Source: Kiritimatiellia bacterium
Lineage (GTDB): Bacteria; Verrucomicrobiota; Kiritimatiellia; RFP12; UBA1067
Direction: 5' to 3'
Assembly (NCBI GenBank): GCA_017412325.1
Contig: JAFPYE010000175.1
Coordinates: 1 to 12,497, forward strand
Length of the DNA stretch: 12,497 nt
Shown here: positions 1-12,497 of the stretch, in pieces
Layout: the number at the start of each line of letters is the position of its first letter
Numbering within the stretch: position 1 is the stretch's first letter
The notes under the pieces: model-generated
What the model saw: the letters and a program-made list of their open reading frames with translations, nothing else
Databases searched by the model: none
What the model was told of the DNA's origin: nothing
Program-made: the position numbers and the translations under genes

Positions 1-1358
1 CCGATCGCCTTGATGAGGTCGTCGATGCGCTGGAACGCGAGCGAGGTCAGGTTCAGCTTCTCGCGGATGAACTCGACCATGCTCGCGTAGTCGGGGCTGT
101 CGGGATCCGTGTACTTTTCGAGGTTCGCGTCCTCGCCCTCGTGGCCGCGCACATACCGCCGCGTGATGAGGTCGTAGACGCTCTTCGAGCGCGAGAAGTT
201 GAGGAAGAGGCACGGATAGACGAGCGGCGGGCACGCGATGCGCATGTGCGTCTCCTTGCAGCCGAGCGAATAGAGCCGCGCCGCCTGCTTGCCGAGCTGC
301 GTGCCGCGCACGATCGAGTCGTCGCAGAAGACGAGCTTCTTGTCCTTGATAAGCCCCGGAATCGAGATGAGCTTCATCGAGGCGACGTGCTCGCGCTGCT
401 TCTGGTCCTGCGGCATGAACGAGCGCGCCCACGTCGGCGTGTACTTGACGAACGGCCGCGAGAACTTGATGCCCGCCTCGTGCGCGTAGCCGAGCGCGTG
501 CGACGTGCCCGAGTCGGGGATGCCGCAGGCCGCGTCCGCGACCGTCGGCGTCCGCCGCGCGAGCGCCCCGCCGCAGCGGTAGCGCGTCATCTCCACGTTG
601 CGCCCCTCGTAGGACGAGGCCGGATAGCCGTAGTAGACCCAGAGGAACGAGCAGATCGCCATCTTCTCGCCCGGCGCGACGAGCGTGATGTCGGCCTCCG
701 GCGTCAGCTCCGCGACTTCGCCCGGCCCCAGGTCGCGCACGTATTCGTAGCCGAGGTTCGGCAGCGCGCAGCTTTCCATGAGCGCGATCATCGCGCCGTC
801 CTTCTTGCCGAGGATGATCGGCGTGCGGCCCCAGCGGTCGCGCGCGGCGTAGAGCCGCCCCTTCTCGTCCACGACGAGGAGCGAGCAGCTACCCTTCACC
901 TTCGCCTGCACGTACTTGATGCCGTCGATCAGCGTGTCCTGCGTCGCGATGAGCGCGGAGACGACCTCCGTCGGCCCGACCATGCCGCTCGTTGTGGAGA
1001 ACTGCAGCTGCATGTGGCTCGTCCGGAACAGCTCCTCCTTCAGCTCCTCGATGTTGGAGATGAGCCCCACGGTGACGATGGCGAACGTGCCGAGCTTGGA
1101 GCACATGACGAGCGGCTGCGGGTCGGTGTCCGAGATGACGCCGATGCCGACCGCGCCCGCGAAGCGCGAGAAGTCGCTCTCGAACTTCGACCGGAACGGC
1201 GCGTTCTGGATGTTGTGGATCGAGCGCTGGAAGACCCCGTCCGGCTTGAGGACGGCCATGCCGCCGCGATGCGTGCCGAGATGAGAATGGTAGTCCGTGC
1301 CGAAGAACAGATCGCTCACGCAATCCGCCTTCGAGATCACTCCGCAAAATCCGCCCAT
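1..1358 (-). CDS. purF: Divergent PurF-like amidophosphoribosyltransferase (3' end cut by window edge)
   Basis: Class II glutamine amidotransferase fused to a phosphoribosyltransferase; PurF makes phosphoribosylamine from PRPP and glutamine, the first step of purine synthesis in the cytoplasm. The start is the ATG at 1358, with GGAGG four bases upstream. About 452 residues are visible and the frame is open at the left edge, so the C-terminus is missing. The PRT half is convincing: IPDSGTSHALGYA, then the PRPP loop VFCDDSIVRGTQ at residues 343-354 (D346, D347), and ESCAL at 195-199. The N-terminal half keeps a possible nucleophile, Cys5 in MGGFCG, which would need removal of four residues. It lacks the usual HxRYxT motif (GIGVISDTDPQP at 71-82 instead) and the HNG oxyanion motif (TVG at 96-98). 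The PRT-domain match is strong, but whether glutamine is still used is open. It may be a PurF paralog. A promoter lies against the end of recJ, 33 nt upstream. Confidence 0.85.
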   Translation of the reverse strand, partial: MGGFCGVISKADCVSDLFFGTDYHSHLGTHRGGMAVLKPDGVFQRSIHNIQNAPFRSKFESDFSRFAGAVGIGVISDTDPQPLVMCSKLGTFAIVTVGLISNIEELKEELFRTSHMQLQFSTTSGMVGPTEVVSALIATQDTLIDGIKYVQAKVKGSCSLLVVDEKGRLYAARDRWGRTPIILGKKDGAMIALMESCALPNLGYEYVRDLGPGEVAELTPEADITLVAPGEKMAICSFLWVYYGYPASSYEGRNVEMTRYRCGGALARRTPTVADAACGIPDSGTSHALGYAHEAGIKFSRPFVKYTPTWARSFMPQDQKQREHVASMKLISIPGLIKDKKLVFCDDSIVRGTQLGKQAARLYSLGCKETHMRIACPPLVYPCLFLNFSRSKSVYDLITRRYVRGHEGEDANLEKYTDPDSPDYASMVEFIREKLNLTSLAFQRIDDLIKAI

Positions 1359-1384
1359 AGAACCTCCGTAAAAGTGAAAAAGAT

Positions 1385-1393
1385 ATTATATCA
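1385..1393 (-). promoter_or_regulatory. Extended -10 promoter of the purF-like gene
   Basis: On the minus strand TGATATAAT lies at 1393-1385, a perfect TATAAT with an extended TGn. The TGA is the recJ stop codon itself. The predicted start near 1378 leaves a leader of about 20 nt containing GGAGG at 1367-1363. No convincing -35 box is visible at 16-18 nt. Inferred from sequence only. Confidence 0.6.
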
Positions 1394-3097
1394 AATTTCC
1401 TGGGCCTTGAGGTCGACGAGGCGCAATTCGACGTGCGGTTCGCCGTAGGTCGAGACCTCGATCGTAAAGTAGACGTCGAACGGGTGCGCGGCCTTGCGGT
1501 GCAGCTCCTCGGCGACGCTGCCGTGGTTCCACCACACCCCGCGCGGCACGTCGGAGCTGTAGAAGAAGACCTGCAGGTGCCGCCCCTCCGCGCCCAGCTG
1601 CCGCGCCTCGCTCAGGTAGACGCCCTTGATGCCGAAGACCGGCTCGGGATTGCCCTCGCCGAACGGCTCCAGCTTCTGGACCCACTCGGCGAAATCGAGC
1701 GTCAGGTCGCGGCCCGTCACCCACGCGTCCACGTAGTCGACCCCCTGCGCCTCGCACGGGCCCGCCGCGCACTGCGCCGCACAGGCCGCGCGGAAGAGCC
1801 GCTTGAAGTCCTCGAACGCGCCCGGCTTGACCGAGAAGCCGCCCGCCGCCGCGTGCCCGCCGTAGCGCGTCAGCGTCGCTTCGGACGCGACAAAGGCGTC
1901 GCGGACGTTGTAGCCCTCCGGTGCGCGCGCGGAGCCGTGCCCGTCCACCGCAATCGCCACCGGCACCGCGCGGTCGATCTTCAGCCGCTCCATGATGCGC
2001 GAGGCGACGATGCCCGCGACGCCTTGGTGCGCGTTCGTGAGGTTGATCACCTGCGCCGGCGCGCCCGGCTCGATCTGCTCCATCGCGGCGTTCGTCATCT
2101 GCTGCTCGATCGACTTGCGCTCCGTGTTGCGCAGGTCGACTGCGAGCGCGAGCCGCCGCGCCTCCTCGCGCTCGTCGGCGAGAATCAGGTTCAGCGATTC
2201 GAGCCCGCTCGCCATCCGCCCCGACGCGTTGATGCGCGGGCCGAGGAGGAAGCCGAAGTCCTTGGCGTTCAGCTTCGGCGCCGTCGTGCGCGAGGCGCGC
2301 GCATAGAGCTCCTTCAGGCCGACCGGCGCCCACGCGTGGAAGCGGCCGAGCGCCTCGGACACGAGCAGGCGGTTCGGGCCCGTGAGCGGCATGATGTCCG
2401 TCACCGTCGCAAGCCCCGCCAGCACGAGCAACTCGCCGCCGATCTTGGGCCCCTCATAGAGCCCTTCCGCCTTCGCCGTCTCCAGCAGGTCCTTCGCCAG
2501 CAGAAACGCCACGCCCGCGCCGCAGAGCCCCTCCAGTTCCGGTGGCGCGGCGACCTTGGGGTTCACGATCGGGCACGCGGGCAACTCGTCGCCCGGCAGG
2601 TGGTGGTCGGTGACGACGACCTCGATGCCCTTCGCCGCAAAATCCGCGACTTCCTTGACGGCGTTGATGCCGTTGTCGACGGTGACGATCAGCTTCACGT
2701 CGGGGACTTCGGCGAGCAGCCGCGCGATCGACGCGGCGGTCATGCCGTAGCCCTCGGTCAGCCGCTCCGGGATGAACGGCACGGCCGACGCGCCCAGCGC
2801 GCGCAGCGCCTTCATCACGATCGCCGTCGCGCAGACGCCGTCGCAATCGTAGTCGCCGAAGACGACGATGCGGCTGCCCGCGCAGACGTGGAGCAGGATG
2901 TCCATCGCCGCCTCGCTGACGCCCGGCAGCGCCTTCGGGCTCGCCAGGCTCGCGAGCGACGGCGCAAAAAACGCGTCGGCGGTCGCGGGGGAAATGCCGC
3001 GGACGGCCAAGAGCCGCGCCTGCAGAGGCGAATAGCCCGCCGCAGTCAGCGCGTCAACGCAGGCGGCGTCGACGCGCTTCTCCTCCCACTGTGCCAC
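1391..3097 (-). CDS. recJ: Single-stranded-DNA-specific exonuclease RecJ
   Basis: 5'-3' single-strand DNA exonuclease of the DHH phosphoesterase superfamily, acting in recombination and repair. At 568 aa it is near the usual family length. DHH-domain metal motifs are in order: DYDCDG at residues 82-87, DNG at 141-143, TDHH at 163-166, then LCGAGVAFLLAK around 191-202 and GPRINASGRM at 286-295. The DHHA1 domain follows with HQGVAGIVASR at 357-367, GHGSAR at 386-391 and YGGHAAAGGFSV at 412-423. About 145 further residues fit the C-terminal OB-fold. The start codon is GTG at 3097-3095, since the MAQWEEK reading has no ATG nearby. It begins 6 nt after the ilvE stop, and its only visible ribosome site is an AAGG inside the ilvE 3' end, so it is probably co-transcribed with and coupled to ilvE. 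Confidence 0.96.
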   Translation of the reverse strand: MAQWEEKRVDAACVDALTAAGYSPLQARLLAVRGISPATADAFFAPSLASLASPKALPGVSEAAMDILLHVCAGSRIVVFGDYDCDGVCATAIVMKALRALGASAVPFIPERLTEGYGMTAASIARLLAEVPDVKLIVTVDNGINAVKEVADFAAKGIEVVVTDHHLPGDELPACPIVNPKVAAPPELEGLCGAGVAFLLAKDLLETAKAEGLYEGPKIGGELLVLAGLATVTDIMPLTGPNRLLVSEALGRFHAWAPVGLKELYARASRTTAPKLNAKDFGFLLGPRINASGRMASGLESLNLILADEREEARRLALAVDLRNTERKSIEQQMTNAAMEQIEPGAPAQVINLTNAHQGVAGIVASRIMERLKIDRAVPVAIAVDGHGSARAPEGYNVRDAFVASEATLTRYGGHAAAGGFSVKPGAFEDFKRLFRAACAAQCAAGPCEAQGVDYVDAWVTGRDLTLDFAEWVQKLEPFGEGNPEPVFGIKGVYLSEARQLGAEGRHLQVFFYSSDVPRGVWWNHGSVAEELHRKAAHPFDVYFTIEVSTYGEPHVELRLVDLKAQEI

Positions 3098-3103
3098 GGG
3101 GGA

Positions 3104-4129
3104 TCAAACCTTGACTTCATGGCACCAGCCGCGGGTGTCCTCGATCTCACCGTACTGGATGCCCTGCACGGTGTGATAGAGCTTGAGGAGCGTGGGATGC
3201 ACCTCGTCCGCGTTGGAAATCTTGATGACCTCGCTGCCGCGCGTGATTTCCCACACGGGCGTGATCACGACCGCCGTGCCGAGCGCGGCGACGGCGACGA
3301 AGTCGCGAATCTCCTCGTAGGGGATCGGGCGACGCTCGACCGTCATGCCGAGGTCTTCCGCCGCCTCGCGCAGCGAGAGGTTGGTGACCGAGGGCAGCAC
3401 CGAGCACGAATCCGGCGTGACGTACTTGCCGTCCTTCGTGATGCCGAGGAAGTTCGAGGTGGAGAATTCCTCCACGTACTTGTGCTCCTTCGCGTCGAGG
3501 TAGAGCTCGACCGGCCAGCCGTCGTGCTTGGCCTTCTCGTGCGCGAAGAGCGACGCGGCGTAGTTGCCGCCGACCTTGACGTCGCCCATGCCGTGCGGCG
3601 CGGCGCGGTCCCAGTCGTCGAGAATGACGGCGCGCACGGGCTTGAGGCCGCCCTTGTAGTAGGCGCCCACCGGCATCACCATCACCAGGAAGGTGTATTC
3701 CTTCGCGGGCGCGACGCCGATCTGCGGGCCCGTGCCGATGAGGAGCGGCCGGAGGTACAGGGAGCCGCCCGTCCCATAGGGCGGCACGAACTCCTCGTTC
3801 GCCGCGACGACCTTGTCGAGCGCGTCGAGGAACATCTCCTCGGGCACGGGCGGCATGACGCACCGGACGGCGGTGCGGTACATGCGGCGCGCGTTCTCCT
3901 CGGGACGGAAGATGACGATCCGGCCCGACTTCTGGCGGAAGGCCTTGATGCCCTCGAAGCATTCCTGCCCGTAGTGGAGGCAGCTCGCCCCGATGTGCAG
4001 GGTGATGTACGGATCCTTGACGAACTCGAACGCGCCCCACTTCCCGTCCTTCCACACCGCGCGGATGTGGCAGTTGACGTCGGAGAAGCCGAATCCGAGG
4101 TTCGCCCAGTCGATGTCTGTTCTTGGCAT
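3104..4129 (-). CDS. ilvE: Branched-chain amino acid aminotransferase
   Basis: PLP-dependent fold-type IV aminotransferase that interconverts leucine, isoleucine and valine with their 2-oxo acids, using glutamate/2-oxoglutarate. It is cytosolic, and 341 aa is right for the family. Visible landmarks are LHYGQECFEGIKAF near residues 51-64, SLYLRPLLIG at 123-132, the Schiff-base lysine K185 in GDVKVGGNYAAS, and the class IV signature around E221 (EEFSTSNFLGI). The ATG at 4129 is preceded by AAAGGAAAG at a good distance and an A/C-rich leader. The gene has its own extended -10 promoter and is followed at 6 nt by recJ. No leader peptide or attenuator of the leu/ilv type was seen. The specific substrate (branched-chain rather than another class IV aminotransferase) rests on the overall motif set. 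Confidence 0.94.
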   Translation of the reverse strand: MPRTDIDWANLGFGFSDVNCHIRAVWKDGKWGAFEFVKDPYITLHIGASCLHYGQECFEGIKAFRQKSGRIVIFRPEENARRMYRTAVRCVMPPVPEEMFLDALDKVVAANEEFVPPYGTGGSLYLRPLLIGTGPQIGVAPAKEYTFLVMVMPVGAYYKGGLKPVRAVILDDWDRAAPHGMGDVKVGGNYAASLFAHEKAKHDGWPVELYLDAKEHKYVEEFSTSNFLGITKDGKYVTPDSCSVLPSVTNLSLREAAEDLGMTVERRPIPYEEIRDFVAVAALGTAVVITPVWEITRGSEVIKISNADEVHPTLLKLYHTVQGIQYGEIEDTRGWCHEVKV

Positions 4130-4176
4130 TGTCTTTCCTTTTTTTGTTGTGTTGTTATTTTTGTTGGGAAATCGAT
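4130..4176 (-). promoter_or_regulatory. A/C-rich unstructured 5' leader with RBS of ilvE
   Basis: From the predicted transcription start to the ATG the minus strand is almost only A and C, with AACAAAAATAAC and CAACACAAC stretches, ending in AAAGGAAAG about 4 nt before the ATG. It is strikingly low in G and T in an otherwise GC-rich region, so it should stay single-stranded and favour ribosome entry. It shows no hairpin, riboswitch or leader ORF. Confidence 0.5.
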
Positions 4177-4183
4177 GCCAGAT

Positions 4184-4192
4184 AGTATATCA
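4184..4192 (-). promoter_or_regulatory. Extended -10 promoter of ilvE-recJ
   Basis: TGATATACT reads on the minus strand from 4192 to 4184, in an AT-rich island just after the lyase stop codon (4217-4219). The predicted start is near 4177. The candidate -35 hexamers at 17-18 nt (CACCTC, GCACCT) are poor, so this is called on the extended -10 alone. No terminator for the upstream lyase gene is visible, so read-through into ilvE is possible. Confidence 0.55.
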
Positions 4193-4216
4193 TATTTCGA
4201 TCCGAAGAGGTGCTTT

Positions 4217-7200
4217 CTATTCGAGATAGGTGCCGCGGAACCAGATCTTGTGTCCCTTCAGGTCCGGGCCGAAGTAGAAGCCGGGGTCGGTCGGCACGTT
4301 GTAGCCGTTGTTCTGGGTCAAGACGGAGATGCGGTAGACGGGGTCTTCGAGGAACGTGTGGAAGCGGTAGGGCGTGTCGTGCGGCGACAGGTAGACGCGG
4401 ATCGCCCGGTTGTCGCGGCGCGTCAGCAGGATTTCCTCGCGCCAGTCGCCGAAGAGGTCGGCGACGAGGCACGGGCAGCCCTTCGTGCCATGGTTGGAGT
4501 GGACGTTCGGCTCCGCGCCCTCCGGCCGCGCGTCGAGGTCTTCCTTGTCGACGAGCGCGCGCCCCTTCACCGAATAGCCCTTGATCACGCTGCCGCCCGA
4601 ATACGCCGAGCGCGTCAGGTCGCCCCGCCACCAGATGCCGAAGCGCAGGGTGCCGTAGTAGTTGTCCTTCGGGTTCGGCTTGGGCCCCATGTACCGCTGG
4701 CCCGTGAGGGCGGAGTAGATGCCGGTGTGCGCGCCGCCGAAGAGCTCCATCCCCGGCTGGTCGGGATCGATGTCCAGCGCGTTGCAGCTGCCGGTGTCGA
4801 TCGGCCCGTGCGTCCAGAAACGGATCCGCCCCGACTGCGCGTCGAAGAGCGTGACGCCGAACGGCGGCGCCTCGTGGCACGTCCACACCTGGAGCCCGCG
4901 CAGCGTCGGCGCGCCCTGGATGAGGTGGATCGCGTCGCCATGGCCCATGCCCGTCGTGTAGAGCCCCTGCCCGTCGTGGTCCACGACCATGTGGCCGTAG
5001 ACGATCTCGTCCTTGCCGTCGAAGTCCACGTCCCCGACGCGCAGGTTGTGGAAGCCCTGCCCGCCGTAGCCCCACCAGCGCGGCTCGTCAGAGCAGAAAA
5101 ACCACCGCTCCTTCAGCTTTTTGTCCACGAGGTCGTAGGCCGTCAGGCACGTGCGCGAGTAGTAGCCACGGCACAAGACGACGCTCGGATGCACGCCGTC
5201 GAGATAGGCGACGGCCCCGAGCATGCGGAACGCCTGGTTGCCGGGGTTGCGGCTCGACCATTCGCGGTTGATCGCCTTCTCGTCGCCGGCGATGCCGTCC
5301 TTGTCCGTCCCCGCCTTCGCGCGGGCGGTCGCCTCCTCGCGCCGTTTCGCGTCGCTGAGGACGTCCGGCTTGAACGGCACCGCGTCCACCGCCGCGCCCG
5401 TCGCGCCGTCGAATGCCGTCGTGAAGTTCCGCGCCCAGAGGATGTGCGCGCCGGGGACGGTCGCGCGCCAGTCCGTGAACGCGGCGGCCGTCGCCGGGGC
5501 GAAGACGCCGTCCGCGCCCTGCACGCGCCCCTTCCCGTCCACCGTGCCCTCGGCGGTGCGGCAGACGACCTCCGCCGTGCCGTCGCCGTCCATGTCGCAG
5601 ACCATGACGGGCACGTAGTGCGAGCCCGAGCGGATGTTCGGCCCCAAGTTGATCTTCCACAGACTCCTGTTCGTGCCGTCGAGCTTCACGCCCTCCAGCC
5701 ACGTGTCGCCCGTCTTGTGCCACGACGAATTGTCCGCGCCGTTGTCCGGCCACCAGATGACGACGAGTTCGTATTCGCCGTCGCCGTCGAGGTCGCCGAT
5801 GGAGCAGTCGCACGGATGGTGCGCGACGGCCGTGCCGTCGGGCATCTTCGTCTTCGGCGGCGGCGTGAGCGCGATGTCGAAGGAGCCGACCGGCGCGTTC
5901 GCGGGCAGCGTCCACGACCCGCTGACCTTGAACGTCGCCTCGCGCCCGCCGACGACGGCGCGCACCTCGTACGTCGTCGCCCGCCCCGTCCACGGCGTCT
6001 TGAAATAGGTGACGTCCGCAATCGGCGACGCGTTCAGCTTCGTCCCGTTTGCATAGACGTTGAACGCGATGTTCGTCGGGTCGCTCGACTTGTAGCGCCA
6101 GCCGACCATCACGTCCTTTTCCGTCTGCCGCACGGCGTAGACGCCGCGCCCCATGCGCTCCTTCTGCATGTGCTTGAGCTTGTAGCCGGTCGCCGGCTGC
6201 GGAAACGCGTCCGCGCCCACGTCCGTCGCGCCGGGGTTCGACTCGATCACCTTGGCGCCCGCCGCCTTGACGATGCGCCCGACGACGTTCGCCGAGACGC
6301 ACTTCAAGGTCGCGCCCTTCGCGAGCTCGATGGTGCCGCCCCACGTCGCCGCCGGGCCCAGGACGACGGTCGAGCCGTTGGCGACCGTCAGCTTGCCCGT
6401 CGCGCGGTCGCACGGATACTGGAGCCCGAGCGTGCCCTCGCCCGTCTTGACGAGGTTGCCGTCGCCCTCGAACGACGCGCGGACGACGAGCTGCCGGTTG
6501 GCGATGAGCCGGCTCGTCCCGCGCAGCTGGATCGGCGCGCCCGACTTCACGAACGTCGGCTCGAAGCTGAGGAGCGCGCCGCCCGAGAACACCACCTCGT
6601 TCGTCCGCGCCCGCGCGTAGTTGGAGTCGAACACGAAGCCGCCGGATCCCAGCGCGAACTGCCCGCCCGCGCCCAGCTCGAAGCGCTTTTCGCCGCCGAT
6701 GCCGCCCTGCGCGAGCACGCCTTTCGCGTAGAGCCGCTTTTCGCCGTCCGTGCCGATCACGATCCGCTCGGGAATCTCGTAGCCGAGGCGCAGCACCGAA
6801 TTCGTGTCGATGAACGCGCTGATCTTCTCCTTCGGCATCGGCAGCCCTTCCGGCCACGGCGCGTTGCCGTTCGCGATCTGGAGGAGCTGCACTTCGCCGA
6901 GCGCCGTGTCGTAGACGCGCCAGTCGTCGAGCTCCACGCCCTCGACCGCCGCGCAGCCGCCGCCCTTGCCCGCCCAGTGGAACGAGCCGAACGTGAACTC
7001 GCCCGCGAACCCGTCCGCCGCGAACTCGCGGCTTTCGCCCGCCTTCTTGCCGTCCACCCAGAGCGCCACCGCGCCGTCCGCGCCCTTCGTCACCGCATAG
7101 ACGTGGAACTGCTGGCCGAAGTGGACGACGTCCTTCATCGCGAGCAGCTTGCCGTCGGCCGCGCCGCCCCACCACTGGACGAGCTTGACGCCGCCCTTGC

Positions 7201-7645
7201 CCGTCGCCGCGAGCGCCAATGCGCGCGAGCCCTTGCCACGCGCCGTGCCCGAGCTCCAGATGATCGCGCCCTCGGCGTCGACGCCCTTGGCGATCGCGAC
7301 GATCGTCCATTCGTCGCCGAACGACATGTTGGTAATGTAGGGGAAAAAGCCGTTCGCGCCAAGCCGGAGCGCGCGCTGTTCGCCGCTGCGCGCCGCGACG
7401 TAGGAGGGGCCCTTTTGACGGAGCTTCGCCATCTGCCGGTTGTCGAACGCGCACGCCCGCTCGCCCGCCGAGTCGAGGGTGCCGTCGAACCTCAGCCGCA
7501 TCAGCGGCACCTGCCCGAGCTCGTCGAGTTGCGCGTTGTCGTCGTCCGTCGGCCGCTCGCCCCCCTGCGCGGCTGCACGCCACGCGCCGCAGACGGCACA
7601 TGCCGCCAGACACAGGATGCACAACCACTCGGTCCTCTTCTTCAT
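4217..7645 (-). CDS. Exported multidomain rhamnogalacturonan lyase (PL11)
   Basis: Polysaccharide lyase family 11 enzyme that cuts the rhamnogalacturonan-I backbone of pectin by beta-elimination. The protein is 1142 aa from the ATG at 7645. An export signal (MKKRTEW then a short hydrophobic run) contains LAAC at residues 13-16, a lipobox; signal peptidase I cleavage after AAA near residue 26 is the alternative. A LamG/concanavalin-like domain spans about 46-260. A beta-strand segment with GDGNLVKTGEGTLGL (394-408) resembles autotransporter-associated repeats. The PL11 catalytic region spans about 484-1142, with Ca-binding-type loops DLDGDG (618-623), DMDGDG (684-689) and DVDFDG (872-877), and the PL11-like stretch LCRGYYSRTCLTAYD. 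No Shine-Dalgarno precedes the ATG, and TATAAT ends only 7 nt before it, so translation may be leaderless. An upstream palindrome is shared with the oxidoreductase promoter. Rhamnogalacturonan specificity is a family-level assignment. Confidence 0.92.
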   Translation of the reverse strand: MKKRTEWLCILCLAACAVCGAWRAAAQGGERPTDDDNAQLDELGQVPLMRLRFDGTLDSAGERACAFDNRQMAKLRQKGPSYVAARSGEQRALRLGANGFFPYITNMSFGDEWTIVAIAKGVDAEGAIIWSSGTARGKGSRALALAATGKGGVKLVQWWGGAADGKLLAMKDVVHFGQQFHVYAVTKGADGAVALWVDGKKAGESREFAADGFAGEFTFGSFHWAGKGGGCAAVEGVELDDWRVYDTALGEVQLLQIANGNAPWPEGLPMPKEKISAFIDTNSVLRLGYEIPERIVIGTDGEKRLYAKGVLAQGGIGGEKRFELGAGGQFALGSGGFVFDSNYARARTNEVVFSGGALLSFEPTFVKSGAPIQLRGTSRLIANRQLVVRASFEGDGNLVKTGEGTLGLQYPCDRATGKLTVANGSTVVLGPAATWGGTIELAKGATLKCVSANVVGRIVKAAGAKVIESNPGATDVGADAFPQPATGYKLKHMQKERMGRGVYAVRQTEKDVMVGWRYKSSDPTNIAFNVYANGTKLNASPIADVTYFKTPWTGRATTYEVRAVVGGREATFKVSGSWTLPANAPVGSFDIALTPPPKTKMPDGTAVAHHPCDCSIGDLDGDGEYELVVIWWPDNGADNSSWHKTGDTWLEGVKLDGTNRSLWKINLGPNIRSGSHYVPVMVCDMDGDGTAEVVCRTAEGTVDGKGRVQGADGVFAPATAAAFTDWRATVPGAHILWARNFTTAFDGATGAAVDAVPFKPDVLSDAKRREEATARAKAGTDKDGIAGDEKAINREWSSRNPGNQAFRMLGAVAYLDGVHPSVVLCRGYYSRTCLTAYDLVDKKLKERWFFCSDEPRWWGYGGQGFHNLRVGDVDFDGKDEIVYGHMVVDHDGQGLYTTGMGHGDAIHLIQGAPTLRGLQVWTCHEAPPFGVTLFDAQSGRIRFWTHGPIDTGSCNALDIDPDQPGMELFGGAHTGIYSALTGQRYMGPKPNPKDNYYGTLRFGIWWRGDLTRSAYSGGSVIKGYSVKGRALVDKEDLDARPEGAEPNVHSNHGTKGCPCLVADLFGDWREEILLTRRDNRAIRVYLSPHDTPYRFHTFLEDPVYRISVLTQNNGYNVPTDPGFYFGPDLKGHKIWFRGTYLE

Positions 7646-7652
7646 GGCAAAA

Positions 7653-7661
7653 ATTATACCA
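7653..7661 (-). promoter_or_regulatory. Extended -10 promoter of the rhamnogalacturonan lyase
   Basis: TGGTATAAT reads on the minus strand at 7661-7653, with a perfect TATAAT and TGn extension. Normal spacing puts the start at about 7646, one base before the ATG. The hexamer 17 nt upstream (GTGTGG) is a poor -35, and the 14-bp palindrome abuts that position, as expected for an activator-dependent promoter. Confidence 0.65.
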
Positions 7662-7681
7662 AATCCGCCGCGCGACCACAC

Positions 7682-7695
7682 TACCCCATCGGGTA
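7682..7695. promoter_or_regulatory. Candidate operator 1 (palindrome upstream of lyase)
   Basis: TACCCCATCGGGTA on the plus strand is an inverted repeat with arms TACCC and GGGTA, extended one more pair by C7681 and G7696. It lies 22 nt (spanning palindrome-adjacent C7681 to the -10) upstream of the lyase -10 box, centred near -42 from the predicted start. A near-identical element at the same distance precedes the oxidoreductase gene. It is read as the site of a dimeric transcription factor; the protein is unknown and not encoded here. Confidence 0.6.
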
Positions 7696-7700
7696 GGATA

Positions 7701-7729
7701 TAAAAACGAAAACCCCCGCGGAGGGGGTT
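7701..7729 (-). terminator. Rho-independent terminator of tRNA-Asn
   Basis: On the minus strand AACCCCC, a five-base loop, then GGGGGTT form a 7-bp perfect stem (7729-7723 with 7717-7711), followed by TTCGTTTTTA (7710-7701). It begins about 10 nt after the tRNA CCA end and lies just before operator 1, so it separates tRNA transcription from the lyase gene. Confidence 0.85.
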
Positions 7730-7739
7730 CGCCTTTGAT

Positions 7740-7814
7740 TGGCTCGGGTGGCTGGATTCGAACCAGCGACCAATTGATTAACAGTCAACTGCGCTACCAC
7801 TGCGCCACACCCGA
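7740..7814 (-). tRNA. tRNA-Asn (anticodon GTT), CCA encoded
   Basis: The minus strand folds as a complete 75-nt tRNA. The acceptor TCGGGTG pairs with CACCCGA; the D arm is GCGC-AGTGGTA-GCGC; the anticodon arm is GTTGA-CTGTTAA-TCAAT with GTT at 7782-7780; the variable loop is TGGTC; and the T arm is GCTGG-TTCGAAT-CCAGC. Discriminator G is followed by an encoded CCA. It lies between the oxidoreductase and the lyase, on the same strand as both, with its own promoter and terminator. Confidence 0.98.
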
Positions 7815-7831
7815 ACGTTCAAGTGGCGCAT

Positions 7832-7861
7832 AGTATATCATTTCCGATTGCCGCCCTGCAA
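7832..7861 (-). promoter_or_regulatory. Promoter of tRNA-Asn
   Basis: The -35 TTGCAG (7861-7856), an 18-nt spacer and the -10 TATACT (7837-7832) with extended TGA read on the minus strand. The predicted start near 7825 leaves about 11 nt of 5' leader before the mature tRNA. The promoter sits in the gap after the oxidoreductase stop codon (7883-7881). Confidence 0.75.
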
Positions 7862-7880
7862 GGGGGTAAATCAAGAAACT

Positions 7881-9494
7881 TTACGCCAGTTCCGACTGGA
7901 GCAGCTGGCGCGCGGAGCCGGGGCCTGCGAGCAGCTTCACGAAGTAGCCTTCGATCTTCGCCGCGAGCGGCGTCGCCGTGAGGTCGCTCCCGAAGATGGA
8001 GGCGTTCGCGAGGATGGGCTTGAGCTGGCCCGCATAGCTCGCGGGGTCGTTCCAGACGATGCCCTTCAGCTGCGCCTGCAGCTCGTCCTTGAGCGGATCG
8101 GCGCTGACTTCCATCGCCGCGCCCGTGTCGTCGACCGCCAGGAGATAGCGCATCCAGCCCGCGATCGCGAGCGGAATCGAGACGAGCGAACCGAGGTCGC
8201 GGCCGGTCGCGACGTAGCTCTTGATCGTCTCGCCGAAGCGGATGCCGACCTTCTGCGACGTGTCGGTCGCGATGCGGCGCGGATCGTCCGGCATGAAGAC
8301 GTTCGGCAGGCGCTCGTTCACGACCTCGTCGATGAACGCCTTGGGCGAGAGGATCTTCGGATCGACCACCACCGGCAGGCCCTCGACGTAGCCAAGGCGC
8401 TTGACGAGCTTGACGATGTCCGCGTCCTGCATCTCCTTGCAGATGAGCGTGTAGCCGAGGAGGCACCCGTACATCGACATCGCCGTGTGCAGCGGGTTGA
8501 GGCAGGTCGTCACCTTCATCTTCTCGGTGTTGTTCACCGTGTCGCGGTCGGTCAGGTAGACGCCCGCCTTGTCGAGCGGCGCGCGGCCGTTCGGGAAGCG
8601 GTCTTCGACCACGAGGTACTGCGGCTTCTCGGCGTTGACGAACGGCGCGATGAACGTCTTCTTCGACGTGACGATCGGCTCCATCCCCTCGATGCCGCAC
8701 TTCTTCAGCTCCGCCTCGACCATCGGGTGCGGGCGCGGCGTGATCTTGTCGATCATCGACCACGGGAACGAGACCTTCGACTCGTCCTGGATGTAGTCGA
8801 GGTACGCGGCGGGCGCAAAGCCGTTCGCGACCCACGCCGACGCCATCGCGACGACCGACGCCTTCAGCTTCTCGCCGTTGTGCGAGCAGTTGTCCATCGA
8901 GACGACCGCCATCGGCAGCGTGCCCGCGTTGAAGCGCTCCAGCAGGAGCGCCGCGACGACGCTCATCGCGTGGCGGCTCGCCTCGGGGCCTTCCTTCATG
9001 TCCGCCTCCACGACCGGCAGGTACGCGCCGTCCGGCTTTTTGAGGGCATACCCCTTCTCGGTAATCGTGAACGAGAGCATCTTCAGCGACGGCGCGCGGA
9101 AGATCCGCTTCAGCTCCGCCTTCGCCGCCGCGTCCGCGAAGTTCGCCTTGACGCCCTTGGCGACGCCCGCGAGCACTTCCTTCGTCACCGTGCCGTCGGG
9201 ATTCAAGAGGACGTTCAGCGTCAGGTTGTCCTGCGCCGTGTAGATCTGGTCGATGATGTCGTAGTCGAACGTGTCGCACGCGATGATGCCCGTCTTCATC
9301 AGCCCCGCGTTCAGGAGGTTCTGCGCGAGCGAGCCGATGAAGCCGCGGAAGATGTTGCCCGCGCCGAAATGCACCCATTCGGGCGCCGCCTCGGTGGCCG
9401 CGCGCATCGCGGCCACGTCGAACGCGGGCAGCTTGACGCCCGCCGCCTGCCAGGCCGCCGCTTCGTTGATGATCGAATCCAGCTTGAGCTTCAT
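7881..9494 (-). CDS. Mannitol-dehydrogenase-family hexuronate oxidoreductase (fructuronate/tagaturonate reductase-like)
   Basis: NAD-dependent long-chain polyol dehydrogenase of the mannitol dehydrogenase/UxuB/UxaB group, likely reducing a keto-uronate from pectin sugars (fructuronate to mannonate or tagaturonate to altronate) in the cytoplasm. The ATG at 9494 follows GGAAGGAAAG at good spacing, giving 537 aa; an upstream GTG at 9542 lies inside the promoter and is rejected. The N-terminal nucleotide-binding segment has HFGAGNIFRGF near residues 42-52. MDNCSHNGEKL is at 200-210 and FPWSMIDKITP at 243-253. The catalytic segment is EKMKVTTCLNPLH, with K327, N333 and H336 as candidate catalytic residues; Lys-Asn spacing is one longer than in the classical mannitol 2-dehydrogenase. 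Its promoter carries the same palindrome as the rhamnogalacturonan lyase promoter, which favours a hexuronate substrate over mannitol. The exact substrate is not settled. Confidence 0.85.
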   Translation of the reverse strand: MKLKLDSIINEAAAWQAAGVKLPAFDVAAMRAATEAAPEWVHFGAGNIFRGFIGSLAQNLLNAGLMKTGIIACDTFDYDIIDQIYTAQDNLTLNVLLNPDGTVTKEVLAGVAKGVKANFADAAAKAELKRIFRAPSLKMLSFTITEKGYALKKPDGAYLPVVEADMKEGPEASRHAMSVVAALLLERFNAGTLPMAVVSMDNCSHNGEKLKASVVAMASAWVANGFAPAAYLDYIQDESKVSFPWSMIDKITPRPHPMVEAELKKCGIEGMEPIVTSKKTFIAPFVNAEKPQYLVVEDRFPNGRAPLDKAGVYLTDRDTVNNTEKMKVTTCLNPLHTAMSMYGCLLGYTLICKEMQDADIVKLVKRLGYVEGLPVVVDPKILSPKAFIDEVVNERLPNVFMPDDPRRIATDTSQKVGIRFGETIKSYVATGRDLGSLVSIPLAIAGWMRYLLAVDDTGAAMEVSADPLKDELQAQLKGIVWNDPASYAGQLKPILANASIFGSDLTATPLAAKIEGYFVKLLAGPGSARQLLQSELA

Positions 9495-9532
9495 GTCGTC
9501 TTTCCTTCCGTTGTCAGGTTGTGAAGGACACG

Positions 9533-9541
9533 AGTATATCA
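9533..9541 (-). promoter_or_regulatory. Extended -10 promoter of the oxidoreductase
   Basis: TGATATACT reads on the minus strand at 9541-9533. The predicted start near 9526 gives a leader of about 32 nt with GGAAGGAAA at 9509-9501. The hexamer 17 nt upstream is GTGCAC, a weak -35. The palindrome at 9562-9575 abuts this position. Confidence 0.65.
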
Positions 9542-9561
9542 CATCCGTGCCGCCCGTGCAC

Positions 9562-9575
9562 TACCCGAACGGGTA
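9562..9575. promoter_or_regulatory. Candidate operator 2 (palindrome upstream of oxidoreductase)
   Basis: TACCCGAACGGGTA on the plus strand is a perfect 6-bp inverted repeat around a central AA. It has the same arms and the same CAC flank as operator 1, and in both cases the last base of CACTACCC before TACCC is 22 nt from the -10 box. It is centred near -42 from the predicted start. Inferred binding site for a dimeric regulator. Confidence 0.6.
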
Positions 9576-9594
9576 AGGTGCCGCGCGCGGCCGT

Positions 9595-9608
9595 CCGGCC
9601 GCGGCCGG
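9595..9608. repeat. Perfect 14-bp GC palindrome after the SurA-like gene
   Basis: CCGGCCGCGGCCGG begins immediately after the stop codon of the SurA-like gene (9611-9609, minus strand) and is followed by more self-complementary GCCGCGCGCGGC sequence. RNA from it would form a very stable hairpin. There is no U-tract, so it is more likely an mRNA-end stabiliser or a weak/Rho-assisted stop than an intrinsic terminator. Confidence 0.45.
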
Positions 9609-10409
9609 TCAGTAGATCCGGATGTAGCTGTCCGCGCGCAGGCGCTCGACCCAGGCCGCGTACGCCGCCTGCGACTTCTCGCGGCGGACGTTCGCCTCGA
9701 TGTCGTCGTACGCCTCAGCGAACGTGCGCGCGACCGCGCCCGTCTCCGCCGTCTTCATGAAGCGGAAGCGCTTGCCGCCGAGCTCGATCCACTCCGACGA
9801 GCCGCCGACCGGCAGCGCGGCGATCGCCTGGCAGATCTCCGGCACGAACAGGTCTTCGGGCTTGACGTCCAGATATTCCTTCGGCGCGGCCTCGCCCTCG
9901 GTCTCGACCGAAATCGACACCTTCGACGCCGCGCGGTAGCGCTCGGGATGCGCGGCGAACTCGGCCTTCATCTCCGCCGGCGACGCCGTCACGTACTTGT
10001 CGACGACGTTCCACCGCATGGCGCTGACGATCAGGTCGTCCTTGATGCGCGTGCGCCACTCGGTGTAGGGGATCTTCTGCTGCGCGAGCGTCGCGACGAG
10101 CTTGTTGCGGTCGCCCCCGAAGGCGCTGTCGACGATCTCGCGGATGCGGTTCTCGATCACCCACTCCTGCATCGTCAGCTTCTGTTCGCCCGCCGCCTTG
10201 ACGATCAGCTTGCGGTCGATGAGACTGTTGCGCATCTCGTCGAAATGGCTGTCGTCCAGCCCCGCCCGCCGCAGCTCGTTGCGCACCTCGCTGCGGAGGA
10301 TCGTCTGCGCGCCGACCGTCGCGGCAATGCCGTCGACCTCGACGGCGGACAAGGGGGCGCACGCCGCGGCGAGCGCCAGCCCGACTGCGGACATGGCAAG
10401 ATTCTTCAT
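9609..10409 (-). CDS. SurA-like periplasmic chaperone with reduced rotamase region
   Basis: 266-aa exported protein with a SurA-type N-terminal chaperone domain, expected to help outer-membrane proteins fold in the periplasm. The ATG at 10409 is preceded by GGGAGGAA about 8 nt away. The signal peptide is MKNLAMSAVGLALAAAC followed by APLSA, with cleavage likely after A22. Mature residues IAATVGAQTILRSEV (28-42) match the SurA start, followed by a helical region with DRKLIVKAAGEQKL and the IVSAMRWNVVDKYV segment. A parvulin domain is only partly visible: the end part (AIAALPVGGSSEWIELGG) fits, but the opening HILV strand and GGDLGW-type core do not. SurA proteins commonly carry one or two rotamase domains over about 300-430 aa, so this one is short. 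It lies 23 nt after the hexokinase gene, in the same apparent operon. Confidence 0.75.
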   Translation of the reverse strand: MKNLAMSAVGLALAAACAPLSAVEVDGIAATVGAQTILRSEVRNELRRAGLDDSHFDEMRNSLIDRKLIVKAAGEQKLTMQEWVIENRIREIVDSAFGGDRNKLVATLAQQKIPYTEWRTRIKDDLIVSAMRWNVVDKYVTASPAEMKAEFAAHPERYRAASKVSISVETEGEAAPKEYLDVKPEDLFVPEICQAIAALPVGGSSEWIELGGKRFRFMKTAETGAVARTFAEAYDDIEANVRREKSQAAYAAWVERLRADSYIRIY

Positions 10410-10432
10410 CGACTGGATTCCTCCCTGGACGT

Positions 10433-11719
10433 TCACAGCATGGCCGCAATCGCCGCGCCGACCATCGGCGAGTCCTCGACCTGCGGCGTGATGGCGTAAT
10501 GGATGTTGCGGCGGGCGACGAGCATGTCGTTCAGCTCGCGCATGACCGTTTCCGCGAACGGGATCGCCCGCGTCTTGTAGTAGGTGGACCCGTCCGCGTT
10601 GATCGCCACCGGCTCGGCGGGGTCGTTGCCCGCGCCGGACTTGATGGCGAACGCCGCGAGGTGGATCGCCGTCAGCACCGCCGCGCGCTCGAAGACGGGC
10701 AGGCCCAGCCGCCGCGCCATCCGCGCATCGTCCGGGTCGGCGAAGATCGCGTCCAGCACGTTGTCGCGCCCTTCCTTCTTGAACGCCGCGCAGAAGTTGT
10801 CGAAGTCCATCGTCTCCAGCGCGCCCAGTCCGCCGATTGCCGCGGCGGCCTTGGCGGAGAAGAGCCCTTCCTTCGCCGCCGCCTTGTAGATCTCGAGGCC
10901 GATGCCGCCGAGGTACGCGCCCGCGATCAGCTTCTCGAAGACCTGCTGGCCCGGGTTGCCGCCCTTCGCGTCCAGCGCCTTGTCGAACGCGCTGACCGCG
11001 ATCTTGTTGAAGCCGCCCGACTCCGCGTTGATGATCATCGACCCGTCCCGGTCCAGCCCCGCGACCTTCGCGATGTTCGCGTTCTGCTCGACGTAGGCGC
11101 AGTTGGTGCCGGTGCCGAGGATGAAACCGATGTAGGAAGAATACGTCTTGTCGCCTTCCGTCGCCTTCGCCGCGAGGAGCGTCGCCACCGTGTCGTTCAC
11201 GATGGCGATCTCGCCGCCGCCCAGCCGCTTGAGGAGCTCCGCGCCGACGTACTGGCCGACGATGGCGGGGGCCTGGATGTTCTTCGTCCAGCGCACGAGC
11301 TTCGCGTCCAGCGCAGGCGTCGCCTCCGCCGGATACGAGAAGCACCAGCCGATCTTCTTCACCGACGCGAGCGGCCGGAGGCGCGCGACCTCTTCCGCAA
11401 ACGCCTTGTAGAACGTCTCCTCGTCCACTTCGCCCTTCGTGCCGGGCATCGGGCGGTTCTGCTTCTCGGCGACCTTCGGCGGGACCGAGACGATGCCGCC
11501 GCGGAAATTCGTGCCGCCCGCGTCAAGCACCGCCGCCGTCGCGCCCGGCGGCACCTTGCCGTTGATGCCGACGTAGGTCGGGACCATCATCAACGACGAC
11601 GGCTCGCCGCGGAGCCCCTTCTCCATTTCGTCGATGAACGCCGCGATCAGCCTCTGGCGGTCGATGTCGTCGGCGAGGACAAAGCCGTTGTCCTTCAGGA
11701 ATTCTTCAGGTGTCTTCAT
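10433..11719 (-). CDS. Hexokinase (eukaryotic-type family)
   Basis: ATP-dependent kinase that phosphorylates glucose or another hexose in the cytoplasm. At 428 aa it fits a single-unit hexokinase of the eukaryotic-type (PF00349/PF03727) fold rather than the shorter ROK or Glk glucokinases. Motifs in order: phosphate-1 loop LDAGGTNFR (65-73), sugar-binding FSYP (127-130), WTK (144-146), NDTVATLL (175-182, candidate catalytic D176), GFILGTGTNCAYVE (198-211), IINAESGGF with sugar-binding E233, and an adenosine-site NADGSTYYKT near the C-terminus. The usual NTEWG tryptophan is serine here. The ATG at 11719 overlaps the rsmA 3' end by 14 nt with AAAGGA upstream, so translation is probably coupled; an internal promoter in rsmA may add independent expression. 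Which hexose is used cannot be told. Confidence 0.9.
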   Translation of the reverse strand: MKTPEEFLKDNGFVLADDIDRQRLIAAFIDEMEKGLRGEPSSLMMVPTYVGINGKVPPGATAAVLDAGGTNFRGGIVSVPPKVAEKQNRPMPGTKGEVDEETFYKAFAEEVARLRPLASVKKIGWCFSYPAEATPALDAKLVRWTKNIQAPAIVGQYVGAELLKRLGGGEIAIVNDTVATLLAAKATEGDKTYSSYIGFILGTGTNCAYVEQNANIAKVAGLDRDGSMIINAESGGFNKIAVSAFDKALDAKGGNPGQQVFEKLIAGAYLGGIGLEIYKAAAKEGLFSAKAAAAIGGLGALETMDFDNFCAAFKKEGRDNVLDAIFADPDDARMARRLGLPVFERAAVLTAIHLAAFAIKSGAGNDPAEPVAINADGSTYYKTRAIPFAETVMRELNDMLVARRNIHYAITPQVEDSPMVGAAIAAML

Positions 11720-12497
11720 TCTCTATCAGTCCTTTCACAAGGTTGATCCAGTCGTCGTTCGCGAGCTCTTCGGCCCGTGCCGTAGATTGTATCATATCTT
11801 TGAAGATCGTGCCAAGCTGTTTCCGGCGGTGCTCGAACGCCTGCTTGGTCAGGCGATGGAAGAGGTCGCGCTCCGCGTCGGTCAGCGCGGCGTTGCGGTC
11901 GTGCCGGACGAGCGTGACCACCGTCGAGCCGATGGCGGGGCGCGGCCAGAAGCAGCTCGCCGCCACCTTGCGCACGATCGCCACGTCGTAGTCGAGCTGC
12001 GCCCATACGCCCGCGAGGCCGCGCACCTTCGAGCCCTCCTTCGCCGCCAGCCGCTCGGCGACCTCCGTCTGCACGAGCACCGTCATCCGCGCCAACGCGC
12101 GTTGCCGCACCAGCTCCAGCAGGATCCGCGTCCCCGCCTGGTAGGGCAGGTTGGAGACCATCGTCAGGCGCGCGGCATCGGACGAAGCGAGGAGCTTCTC
12201 GTGCGCCGCCGCCCGCACGCGCGGGTCGAGCGCATCGCCCGTGAGGACGGTGAGTCCGGCGATCCCCGCCGCCGCGAGCCGGTCCGCCAGCACGGGGTCC
12301 TTCTCGATGGCGACGACCGGATGCCCGCGCGCGACCATCTCTTCCGTCAGCACGCCCAGCCCCGGCCCGATCTCCAGAACCGGCGCGCCCGCCGGCACGC
12401 CGTCGAGCCCCGCGTCCACGATGGCGACGAGCGCATTGCGGTCGATGAGGAAGTTCTGCCCCATCGTCTTGTTCGGGTGGAAGTCGTGTTCGATGCA
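11706..12497 (-). CDS. rsmA: 16S rRNA dimethyladenosine transferase RsmA/KsgA (5' end beyond window)
   Basis: SAM-dependent enzyme that dimethylates two adjacent adenosines near the 3' end of 16S rRNA during small-subunit maturation. Motif I is VLEIGPGLGVLTEEM, followed by the acidic IEKD that binds SAM ribose, GDALD, and the adenine-site SNLPYQAG; CFWPRPAIGSTVV is typical of the family C-terminal half. An ATG occurs at 12464 before GQNFLID, but the frame stays open to the right edge and reads HPNKTMGQNFLID. Since family members normally have a basic stretch before GQNFL, the true start is probably off the window. The C-terminus ends with a 14-nt overlap into the hexokinase gene. A run of AT-rich codons (GATATGATACAATC, 11799-11786) coincides with a promoter-like element. 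Confidence 0.95.
   Translation of the reverse strand, partial: CIEHDFHPNKTMGQNFLIDRNALVAIVDAGLDGVPAGAPVLEIGPGLGVLTEEMVARGHPVVAIEKDPVLADRLAAAGIAGLTVLTGDALDPRVRAAAHEKLLASSDAARLTMVSNLPYQAGTRILLELVRQRALARMTVLVQTEVAERLAAKEGSKVRGLAGVWAQLDYDVAIVRKVAASCFWPRPAIGSTVVTLVRHDRNAALTDAERDLFHRLTKQAFEHRRKQLGTIFKDMIQSTARAEELANDDWINLVKGLIENEDT
11786..11815 (-). promoter_or_regulatory. Intragenic promoter in rsmA, driving hexokinase
   Basis: On the minus strand, -35 TTGGCA (11815-11810, five of six consensus bases), an 18-nt spacer, and -10 TACAAT (11791-11786) with TGA extension. The start would be near 11779, about 60 nt before the hexokinase ATG. It lies in coding sequence, where the codons used (ATA, CAA, TCT) are unusually AT-rich for this gene. 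Confidence 0.55.

Follow-up and report, generated by a model that had tools for sequence, protein, structure and literature searches.

Two-component systems such as NarX/NarL, VraSR, DesKR and DevR/DosR combine a HisKA_3 histidine kinase with a response regulator that carries receiver (REC) and GerE domains and uses an inverted-repeat operator, and they respond to nitrate, wall stress or hypoxia. The hexuronate pathway considered here is a known target of the one-component regulator KdgR (IclR or LacI family). The same pathway is described in the available text of PMC9369180 (PubMed Central, PMC) as controlled by ExuR/UxuR, one-component regulators of the GntR family. In Bacteroides, rhamnogalacturonan genes are under the extracytoplasmic-sensing two-component control of HTCS_Rgu, and the accessible part of PMC3878776 describes such regulators as fused, AraC-type proteins that use direct repeats and are unique to Bacteroidetes. 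Here, we analyzed a stretch of 12,497 nucleotides (contig JAFPYE010000175.1, positions 1 to 12,497, assembly GCA_017412325.1 of a gut-type Kiritimatiellia bacterium; hereafter, the window), in which a rhamnogalacturonan lyase gene and a UxuB-like reductase gene share a palindromic promoter element. From sequence, we describe this operator, its spacing, the anatomy of the promoters, the content of the regulon, and a kinase-regulator pair that co-occurs with the sites and is linked to regulon genes. We consider it quite likely that the response regulator of this pair, a dimeric protein of the NarL/FixJ type, binds TACCC-R-A-W-Y-GGGTA and activates pectin/hexuronate promoters, with TACCCGTTCGGGTAG as its predicted target sequence. 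In contrast to the known NarL-type systems, the proposed one would serve pectin and hexuronate use and has a two-domain, beta-rich sensor; it differs from HTCS_Rgu in having separate genes for the kinase and a NarL-type (GerE) regulator, a palindromic operator, and the cytoplasmic pathway among its targets, whereas ExuR/UxuR and KdgR belong to other families that are absent or not shared here.

The promoters and genes concerned all lie on the minus strand of the window:

7682..7695 (read 7695-7682), minus strand: operator TACCCGATGGGGTA of the lyase promoter, found by mismatch scan, predicted centre at -42.5
7653..7658, minus strand: -10 box TATAAT of the lyase promoter, an extended -10 with upstream TG and a poor -35
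4217..7645, minus strand: gene for RGL11 (rhamnogalacturonan lyase family 11; Pfam PF21348, E 5e-137, and PF18370)
9562..9575 (read 9575-9562), minus strand: operator TACCCGTTCGGGTA of the uxuB-like promoter, found by mismatch scan, kept in the relatives G009 and G061
9533..9538, minus strand: -10 box TATACT of the uxuB-like promoter, extended with TG, with a poor -35
7881..9494, minus strand: gene for a UxuB-like reductase of the mannitol-dehydrogenase family (Pfam PF01232/PF08125)

In both promoters, 23 nt separate the 14-mer operator from the -10 box. This equals the 22 nt that a preliminary description of this DNA had counted from 15-mers when it proposed a palindromic operator common to the two promoters, a proposal that holds. 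The same description had seen no copy at the other promoters of the window, and the two operators are in fact the only window positions with at most 2 mismatches to TACCCGNNNGGGTA; a looser window scan (at most 3 mismatches) returned 22 positions, compared to 19.6 expected, which is chance level. With the -10 box put at -12 to -7, the centre of the palindrome was computed to lie at -42.5, in agreement with the suggested class II-like position near -42. Furthermore, the lyase ATG follows 7 nt past the -10 box (window 7645-7658), and the lyase mRNA is therefore probably leaderless.

The recurrence of the element was followed in the genome of the window (G000; an 878 kb assembly, 60% complete, in 190 contigs), in a relative of the same genus (G009, 85% complete), and in a comparison set of 61 genomes of the genus, which are incomplete assemblies. 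A search for exact TACCC-N4-GGGTA palindromes, run without any -10 in the pattern, revealed 5 in G000 and 10 in G009, compared to 0 and 1 for the reversed control. All 15 of these palindromes are accompanied, on one strand only, by an extended -10 of the form TGNTANAMT, which has a background of 34 in 186,764 positions, and the offset between the two is 23 nt in 14 cases and 24 nt in the remaining one. The spaced pattern with at most 1 mismatch was found 19 times in G061, 14 times in G009, 8 times in G062, 7 times in G081, 6 times in G011 and 5 times in G000, with reversed-control counts of 1, 0, 0, 0, 2 and 0, respectively; a further 4 spaced sites were found in G008. The recurrence of operator and spacing is thus confirmed to be far above chance. 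In G009 and G061, the orthologues of the uxuB-like promoter retain site and spacing, as does the G009 lyase promoter (L128), in which the site has 1 mismatch.

Alignment of 62 spaced sites from 9 genomes yielded the operator consensus TACCC-R-A-W-Y-GGGTA; these are 62 of 68 spaced sites, the omitted ones belonging to G011 (3), G008, G062 and G081 (1 each). A T at -17 and a TG at -15/-14, positions absent from the search pattern, are each present in 58 of the 62 sites, and the TG was also seen by eye in 4 of the 6 omitted sites. By raw counts, the best matches to TTGACA at 16-18 nt spacing comprise 2-3 of 6 positions in 46 of the 62 sites, 1 in 3, 4 in 12, and 5 in a single site. Because T(-17) and TG are frequent and TTGACA matches are few, these promoters are of the extended -10 type with a poor -35, and the poor -35 boxes reported for the window promoters (at most 3 of 6 matches in 49 of the 62 sites of this kind) are borne out. 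The operator centre lies 30 bp upstream of the -10 and the operator ends where a -35 hexamer would start. In 14 of 60 site rows, including that of the lyase, the start codon is only 6-7 nt past the -10, and the corresponding mRNAs are predicted to be leaderless.

This anatomy also bears on the direction of control. Since the operator borders on the core promoter at its upstream edge, a repressor bound to the palindrome could block RNA polymerase; however, the spacing is fixed almost to the base and the -35 boxes are poor, whereas repressor sites are typically variable in position and found on good promoters, which makes repression very improbable.

The genes behind the sites were examined in G000, G009 and G061, where a gene was called within 450 nt for 35 of 38 spaced sites. 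Gene calls in the relatives were made with a simple codon-usage script, so that some starts may be wrong, and the family scans were run on part of the genes in the regulon. The genes behind the sites encode the RGL11 lyase, GH28 polygalacturonases, GH35, GH2 and a GH43-GH2 protein (GH, glycoside hydrolase family), as well as a GH88 protein with an acetylesterase domain and a long frame that contains rhamnosidase domains of the GH106 and six-hairpin types. Site-bearing transporters include a major facilitator superfamily (MFS) protein of the ExuT/galactonate kind and a RhaT-type rhamnose symporter. For the hexuronate pathway, sites precede genes for a UxuB-like reductase, tagaturonate reductase (UxaB) and a sugar kinase of the 2-keto-3-deoxygluconate (KDG) type. 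A further site is followed by genes for 2-keto-3-deoxy-6-phosphogluconate (KDPG) aldolase (Eda), glucuronate isomerase (UxaC) and, last and in G009, an altronate-dehydratase-like (UxaA-like) protein, and mannonate dehydratase (UxuA) follows the transporter in G000. In more distant genomes, the site is associated with a GDSL esterase and RhaT (G081) as well as with an MFS transporter and a UxuB-like gene (G074). The names of the transporters, RhaT, the KDG kinase, and the UxaA-like and UxuB-like proteins are partly our assumption, as their matches are under the NCBIfam cut-offs; the window reductase, for example, scores 104 bits against fructuronate reductase, for which the cut-off is 603. Taken together, the gene content supports the assignment of the site-bearing genes to a pectin regulon that would extend from extracellular cleavage through cytoplasmic hexuronate catabolism. 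The two functions that the preliminary description had proposed to be joined are thus found behind the same site, and the enrichment it had anticipated upstream of uxaC, uxuA, kdg, pectinase and rhamnose genes was obtained. Two site-flagged proteins of 627 aa (L124) and 572 aa (L284) have no Pfam match, and the operator marks them as likely pectin genes.

The preliminary description had expected a regulator of the LacI, GntR or IclR family, an expectation that the family scans did not bear out, as the evidence favours a NarL/FixJ two-component system. LacI was rejected because none of 7 site-bearing genomes has a LacI helix-turn-helix (HTH) match over the cut-off; sub-threshold matches occur in 6 of the 7, and those read, one in G062 and one in G011, appear RpoN-like. 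GntR regulators (ExuR/UxuR) are present in 9 of 11 genomes and were rejected on the basis of 0 matches in G009 (85% complete, 14 sites) and G000 (60% complete). IclR regulators (KdgR) were rejected for lack of a shared member: 5 of 10 genomes have one match over the cut-off each, those of G061 and G081 lying inside GntR matches, and none was found in G062 (8 sites), G011, G000, G074 and G082.

An activator of the CRP/FNR family would suit the site itself, as a 14-bp inverted repeat at a class II position fits the geometry of FNR or PrfA and FNR sites have the same half-site spacing as TACCC-N4-GGGTA. CRP-type HTH matches were found in 9 of 11 genomes, among them G009, G061, G062 and G008. However, these proteins are differing members, which among site-rich genomes was judged by eye, and no linkage to the sites was seen; the sole match of G081 lies inside a GntR gene, and none was found in G000 or G074, both incomplete genomes. 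We therefore regard a CRP/FNR-family activator as very unlikely.

The candidate regulator emerged from the neighbours of the sites. In G061, a site lies directly upstream of an operon for a histidine kinase of 465 aa and a NarL/FixJ response regulator of 204 aa; a site in G009 lies upstream of the start of the same kinase, the gene being truncated at the contig end. Only after these neighbours had pointed to the pair was the response regulator searched for in all 61 genomes. It was found at 58% identity or more in 10 of them (G000, at 89%, G009, G061, G062, G081, G074, G082, G011, G067 and G008), the next-best match having 53%, and in all 10 the kinase gene adjoins the regulator gene. In the genome of the window, the pair is located as follows:

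Contig C168 of G000, about 3459-4853: kinase gene; about 4850-5464: response regulator gene

The scanned regulators (G000, G061 and G081) all match PF00072 (receiver) and PF00196 (GerE) over the cut-offs, as do the 3 scanned kinases with respect to HisKA_3 (PF07730), and the closest solved relatives of the regulator are VraR, NarL, DesR and DevR. At least 3 spaced sites were found in 8 of the 10 genomes with the regulator, but in 0 of the 51 without it (Fisher 1.5e-8), and the genomes with the regulator total 68 spaced sites compared to 3 control matches. The effect persists when only the 34 uxuB-bearing genomes are considered (7 of 8 with the regulator vs 0 of 26 without, p = 1.5e-6), so that the sites track the regulator and not just pectin genes.

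Gene order adds to this association. The order is kinase-regulator-uxuB in G081 and kinase-regulator-RGL11-GDSL esterase in G011, and thus both window genes have counterparts that adjoin the regulator in other genomes. Furthermore, G062 has the order site (24 nt)-GH28-kinase-regulator, G082 site-gene-kinase-regulator-GH2, and G008 kinase-regulator-GH35. The pair might be linked merely as a member of the regulon, with the palindrome being bound by another regulator (a different NarL-type protein, TetR, MarR or CsoR). Four families of DNA-binding proteins and two individual regulators were searched, a single genome of the genus can have as many as 26 matches to NarL-type regulators, and CsoR operators such as TACCCTACGGGGTA resemble the palindrome. 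However, it is for the response regulator of the pair that genus-wide co-occurrence and linkage in these five further genome neighbourhoods were found, and we rate the involvement of another regulator as quite improbable.

Orthologous promoters were compared for uxuB and kdgK, with 30 loci listed per gene and a site defined by at least 8 of 10 palindrome positions at 22-24 nt from the -10; promoters without a scorable -10 (8 of the 30 uxuB rows and 10 of the 30 kdgK rows) were counted as misses. Among the matches listed, the site is present in uxuB promoters of 5 of 8 loci with the regulator vs 0 of 22 without, and in kdgK promoters of 6 of 8 vs 0 of 22. In four genomes, another conserved block, about GATTGRATAGTGCTAT...GCTATATC..., occupies the place of the palindrome in the kdgK promoter (L218 in G008, L219 in G003, L226 in G031 and L230 in G080), and kdgK therefore seems to be rewired to another regulator there.

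The kdgK neighbourhood also offers a further candidate, a XylR-like regulator (AraC-type HTH with a LacI-type sensor), whose gene is divergent from site-bearing genes, namely kdgK in G009 and G061, the RhaT gene in G074 and the gene of a flavin adenine dinucleotide (FAD) enzyme in G003. However, the XylR-like promoters have their own element, TTATCCgnTTGCGCAA, consisting of direct repeats 23 bp apart in the usual AraC-family pattern; by eye, among the 7 genomes read, these repeats are plain in 5, and G009 and G061 show one degenerate copy. The best XylR-like matches are only 36-42% identical in G062, G081, G008 and G011, which have 8, 7, 4 and 6 spaced sites, respectively, a comparison that concerns the kdgK-linked XylR in a genus with many paralogues. 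Moreover, a perfect 2-fold operator fits a dimer of single HTHs. Binding of the palindrome by the XylR-like protein is thus improbable in our view, and it is instead predicted to be a second sugar regulator of the genus. The TTATCCgnTTGCGCAA tandem itself is located just upstream of the -10 of the XylR-like gene (L048 7750-7897; loci L176-L182).

Several results weigh against the assignment of the operator to the NarL/FixJ pair. The kinase gene of G000 itself has no site upstream, and autoregulation is therefore not universal. G067 carries the regulator (62% identity) and has 0 spaced sites at 1 mismatch, although 8 of 10 positions are present in its kdgK promoter. Despite the presence of the regulator, the site is missing from the uxuB promoters of G008, G081 (where uxuB follows the pair) and G082, as well as from the kdgK promoters of G008 and G011. 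Conversely, the 51 genomes without an orthologue of at least 58% identity contain 18 spaced matches vs 5 in the control, with 2 each in G003, G019, G029, G076, G080 and G083 and 1 in six others; at least those of G019 and of a transporter promoter common to G026, G029 and G076 look real. The latter carries AACCCGAACGGGTA at the same spacing before a GPH-type sugar transporter gene (by eye; L111 in G029, L095 in G076 and L097 in G026), in genomes that lack a close regulator; the AACCCGAACGGGTA sites may be read by a related one. It should also be noted that the 58% cut was placed at the identity gap seen in the regulator search. On the gene trees, the regulator is scattered (5 changes for uxuB, 7 for kdgK), and after correction for relatedness every pair in which both regulator and site differ agrees and none opposes; however, only 3-4 independent pairs lie on well-supported branches, which are too few for significance. 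Finally, the half-sites do not have the NarL spacing, as NarL uses 7-2-7 inverted heptamers (halves 6 bp apart), whereas the TACCC halves are 4 bp apart here. A single NarL site at -44.5 in a derivative of the E. coli ogt promoter was active but not nitrate-coupled, as stated in the available text of PMC7419079.

On the assignment to the NarL/FixJ pair, which we continue to favour, the kinase would sense a pectin-derived product outside the cytoplasm and phosphorylate the response regulator, the phosphorylated dimer of which would bind at about -42.5, directly against the degenerate -35 region. The bound regulator would then recruit RNA polymerase (class II activation) to promoters whose only other element is an extended -10, and depolymerases of rhamnogalacturonan/pectin, transporters and the hexuronate pathway of the cytoplasm would thereby be switched on together. 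In this scheme, we infer binding of the site by this regulator, activation over repression, the location of the sensor and the nature of the ligand. NarL heptamers begin with TACYY, and DosR half-sites are likewise 4 bp apart. With regard to position, the accessible text of PMC7419079 indicates that E. coli yeaR needs no more than one NarL site, located just upstream of the -35, as proposed here for a single abutting site. According to the parts of PMC9314961 at hand, NarL sites are functional at distances of 65, 55 or 32 bp from the -10 on its upstream side, and in a known CRP promoter the distance is 29 bp, compared to 30 bp for the operator centre here.

The start of the kinase resembles a signal peptide, and a beta-rich sensor and a membrane anchor are also present. 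An AlphaFold2 model of a 97% identical homologue (mean predicted local distance difference test score 83) contains two beta-rich domains at 42-219, followed by a long helix, and the strand order in this model suggests domains like the oligonucleotide/oligosaccharide-binding (OB) fold. A fold search of the PDB matched only the kinase part, which is VraS-/DesK-like, and barely covered the sensor half. The sensor appears to be extracytoplasmic, and the signal is therefore probably not a sugar acid within the cell but one perceived outside the cytoplasm.

A few further observations concern the surroundings of the operators and similar palindromes elsewhere. One neighbour in the window lies outside the regulon, directly upstream of the lyase promoter:

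7740..7814, minus strand: tRNA-Asn (GTT)

A hairpin-like terminator was seen by eye after this tRNA, within window 7700-7814 between the uxuB-like gene and the lyase promoter. A weaker site, TCCCCGAATGGGTG, is located at L044 3251-3264 (contig C4 of G000), 24 nt from an extended -10 and before a transketolase-like gene, and is possibly a link to central metabolism. The palindrome TACCCTTGCGGGTA, present as a single exact copy in many genomes of the genus, was rejected as an operator, since in the one case read it lies inside a tRNA-like gene; by eye, TACCCTTGCGGGTA at L281 3024-3037 is within tRNA-Ser. Palindromes of the form TACCCC..GGGGTA occur in G002, G006 and G021. Among the GTDB species genomes, a collection that may omit near relatives of the window, the strict pattern gave 1 match only, upstream of a permease-like gene on a Clostridiales contig of 37% GC, which was taken as chance.

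Kiritimatiellota are largely uncultured polysaccharide degraders, and two named homologues of the kinase, together with the taxonomy, place the present lineage in Kiritimatiellae. Searches of open-licence PMC literature that touched on Kiritimatiellae, hexuronate regulation or pectin two-component systems yielded neither an operator or regulon for Kiritimatiellae nor a stand-alone NarL-type pair over both pectin depolymerases and cytoplasmic hexuronate catabolism. Up to 26 matches to NarL-type response regulators occur per genome (in G062, G081, G008 and others), several of them with kinases beside polysaccharide genes (L286, L290). Tentatively, Kiritimatiellae might use separate HisKA_3 kinases, expanded into a family and equipped with extracytoplasmic sensors that are beta-rich and OB-like, together with NarL-type regulators as glycan-sensing switches, an independent counterpart of the Bacteroidota hybrids, in which each pair would have its own palindrome at -42.5 of an extended -10 promoter and the present pair would command the pectin chain from outside cleavage to the cytoplasmic KDPG aldolase. 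This wider idea is without direct support, because no perfect palindrome was found at this slot before kinase genes: among five kinase genes or operons, 0 were found in the 3 with a scorable -10, and 2 had no scorable -10. For the system described here, the operator, the regulon and the candidate sensor-regulator pair together make binding, ligand and activation testable in vitro without culturing and, if the proposed control is true, it would account for the way in which pectin digestion is switched on in this uncultured group.

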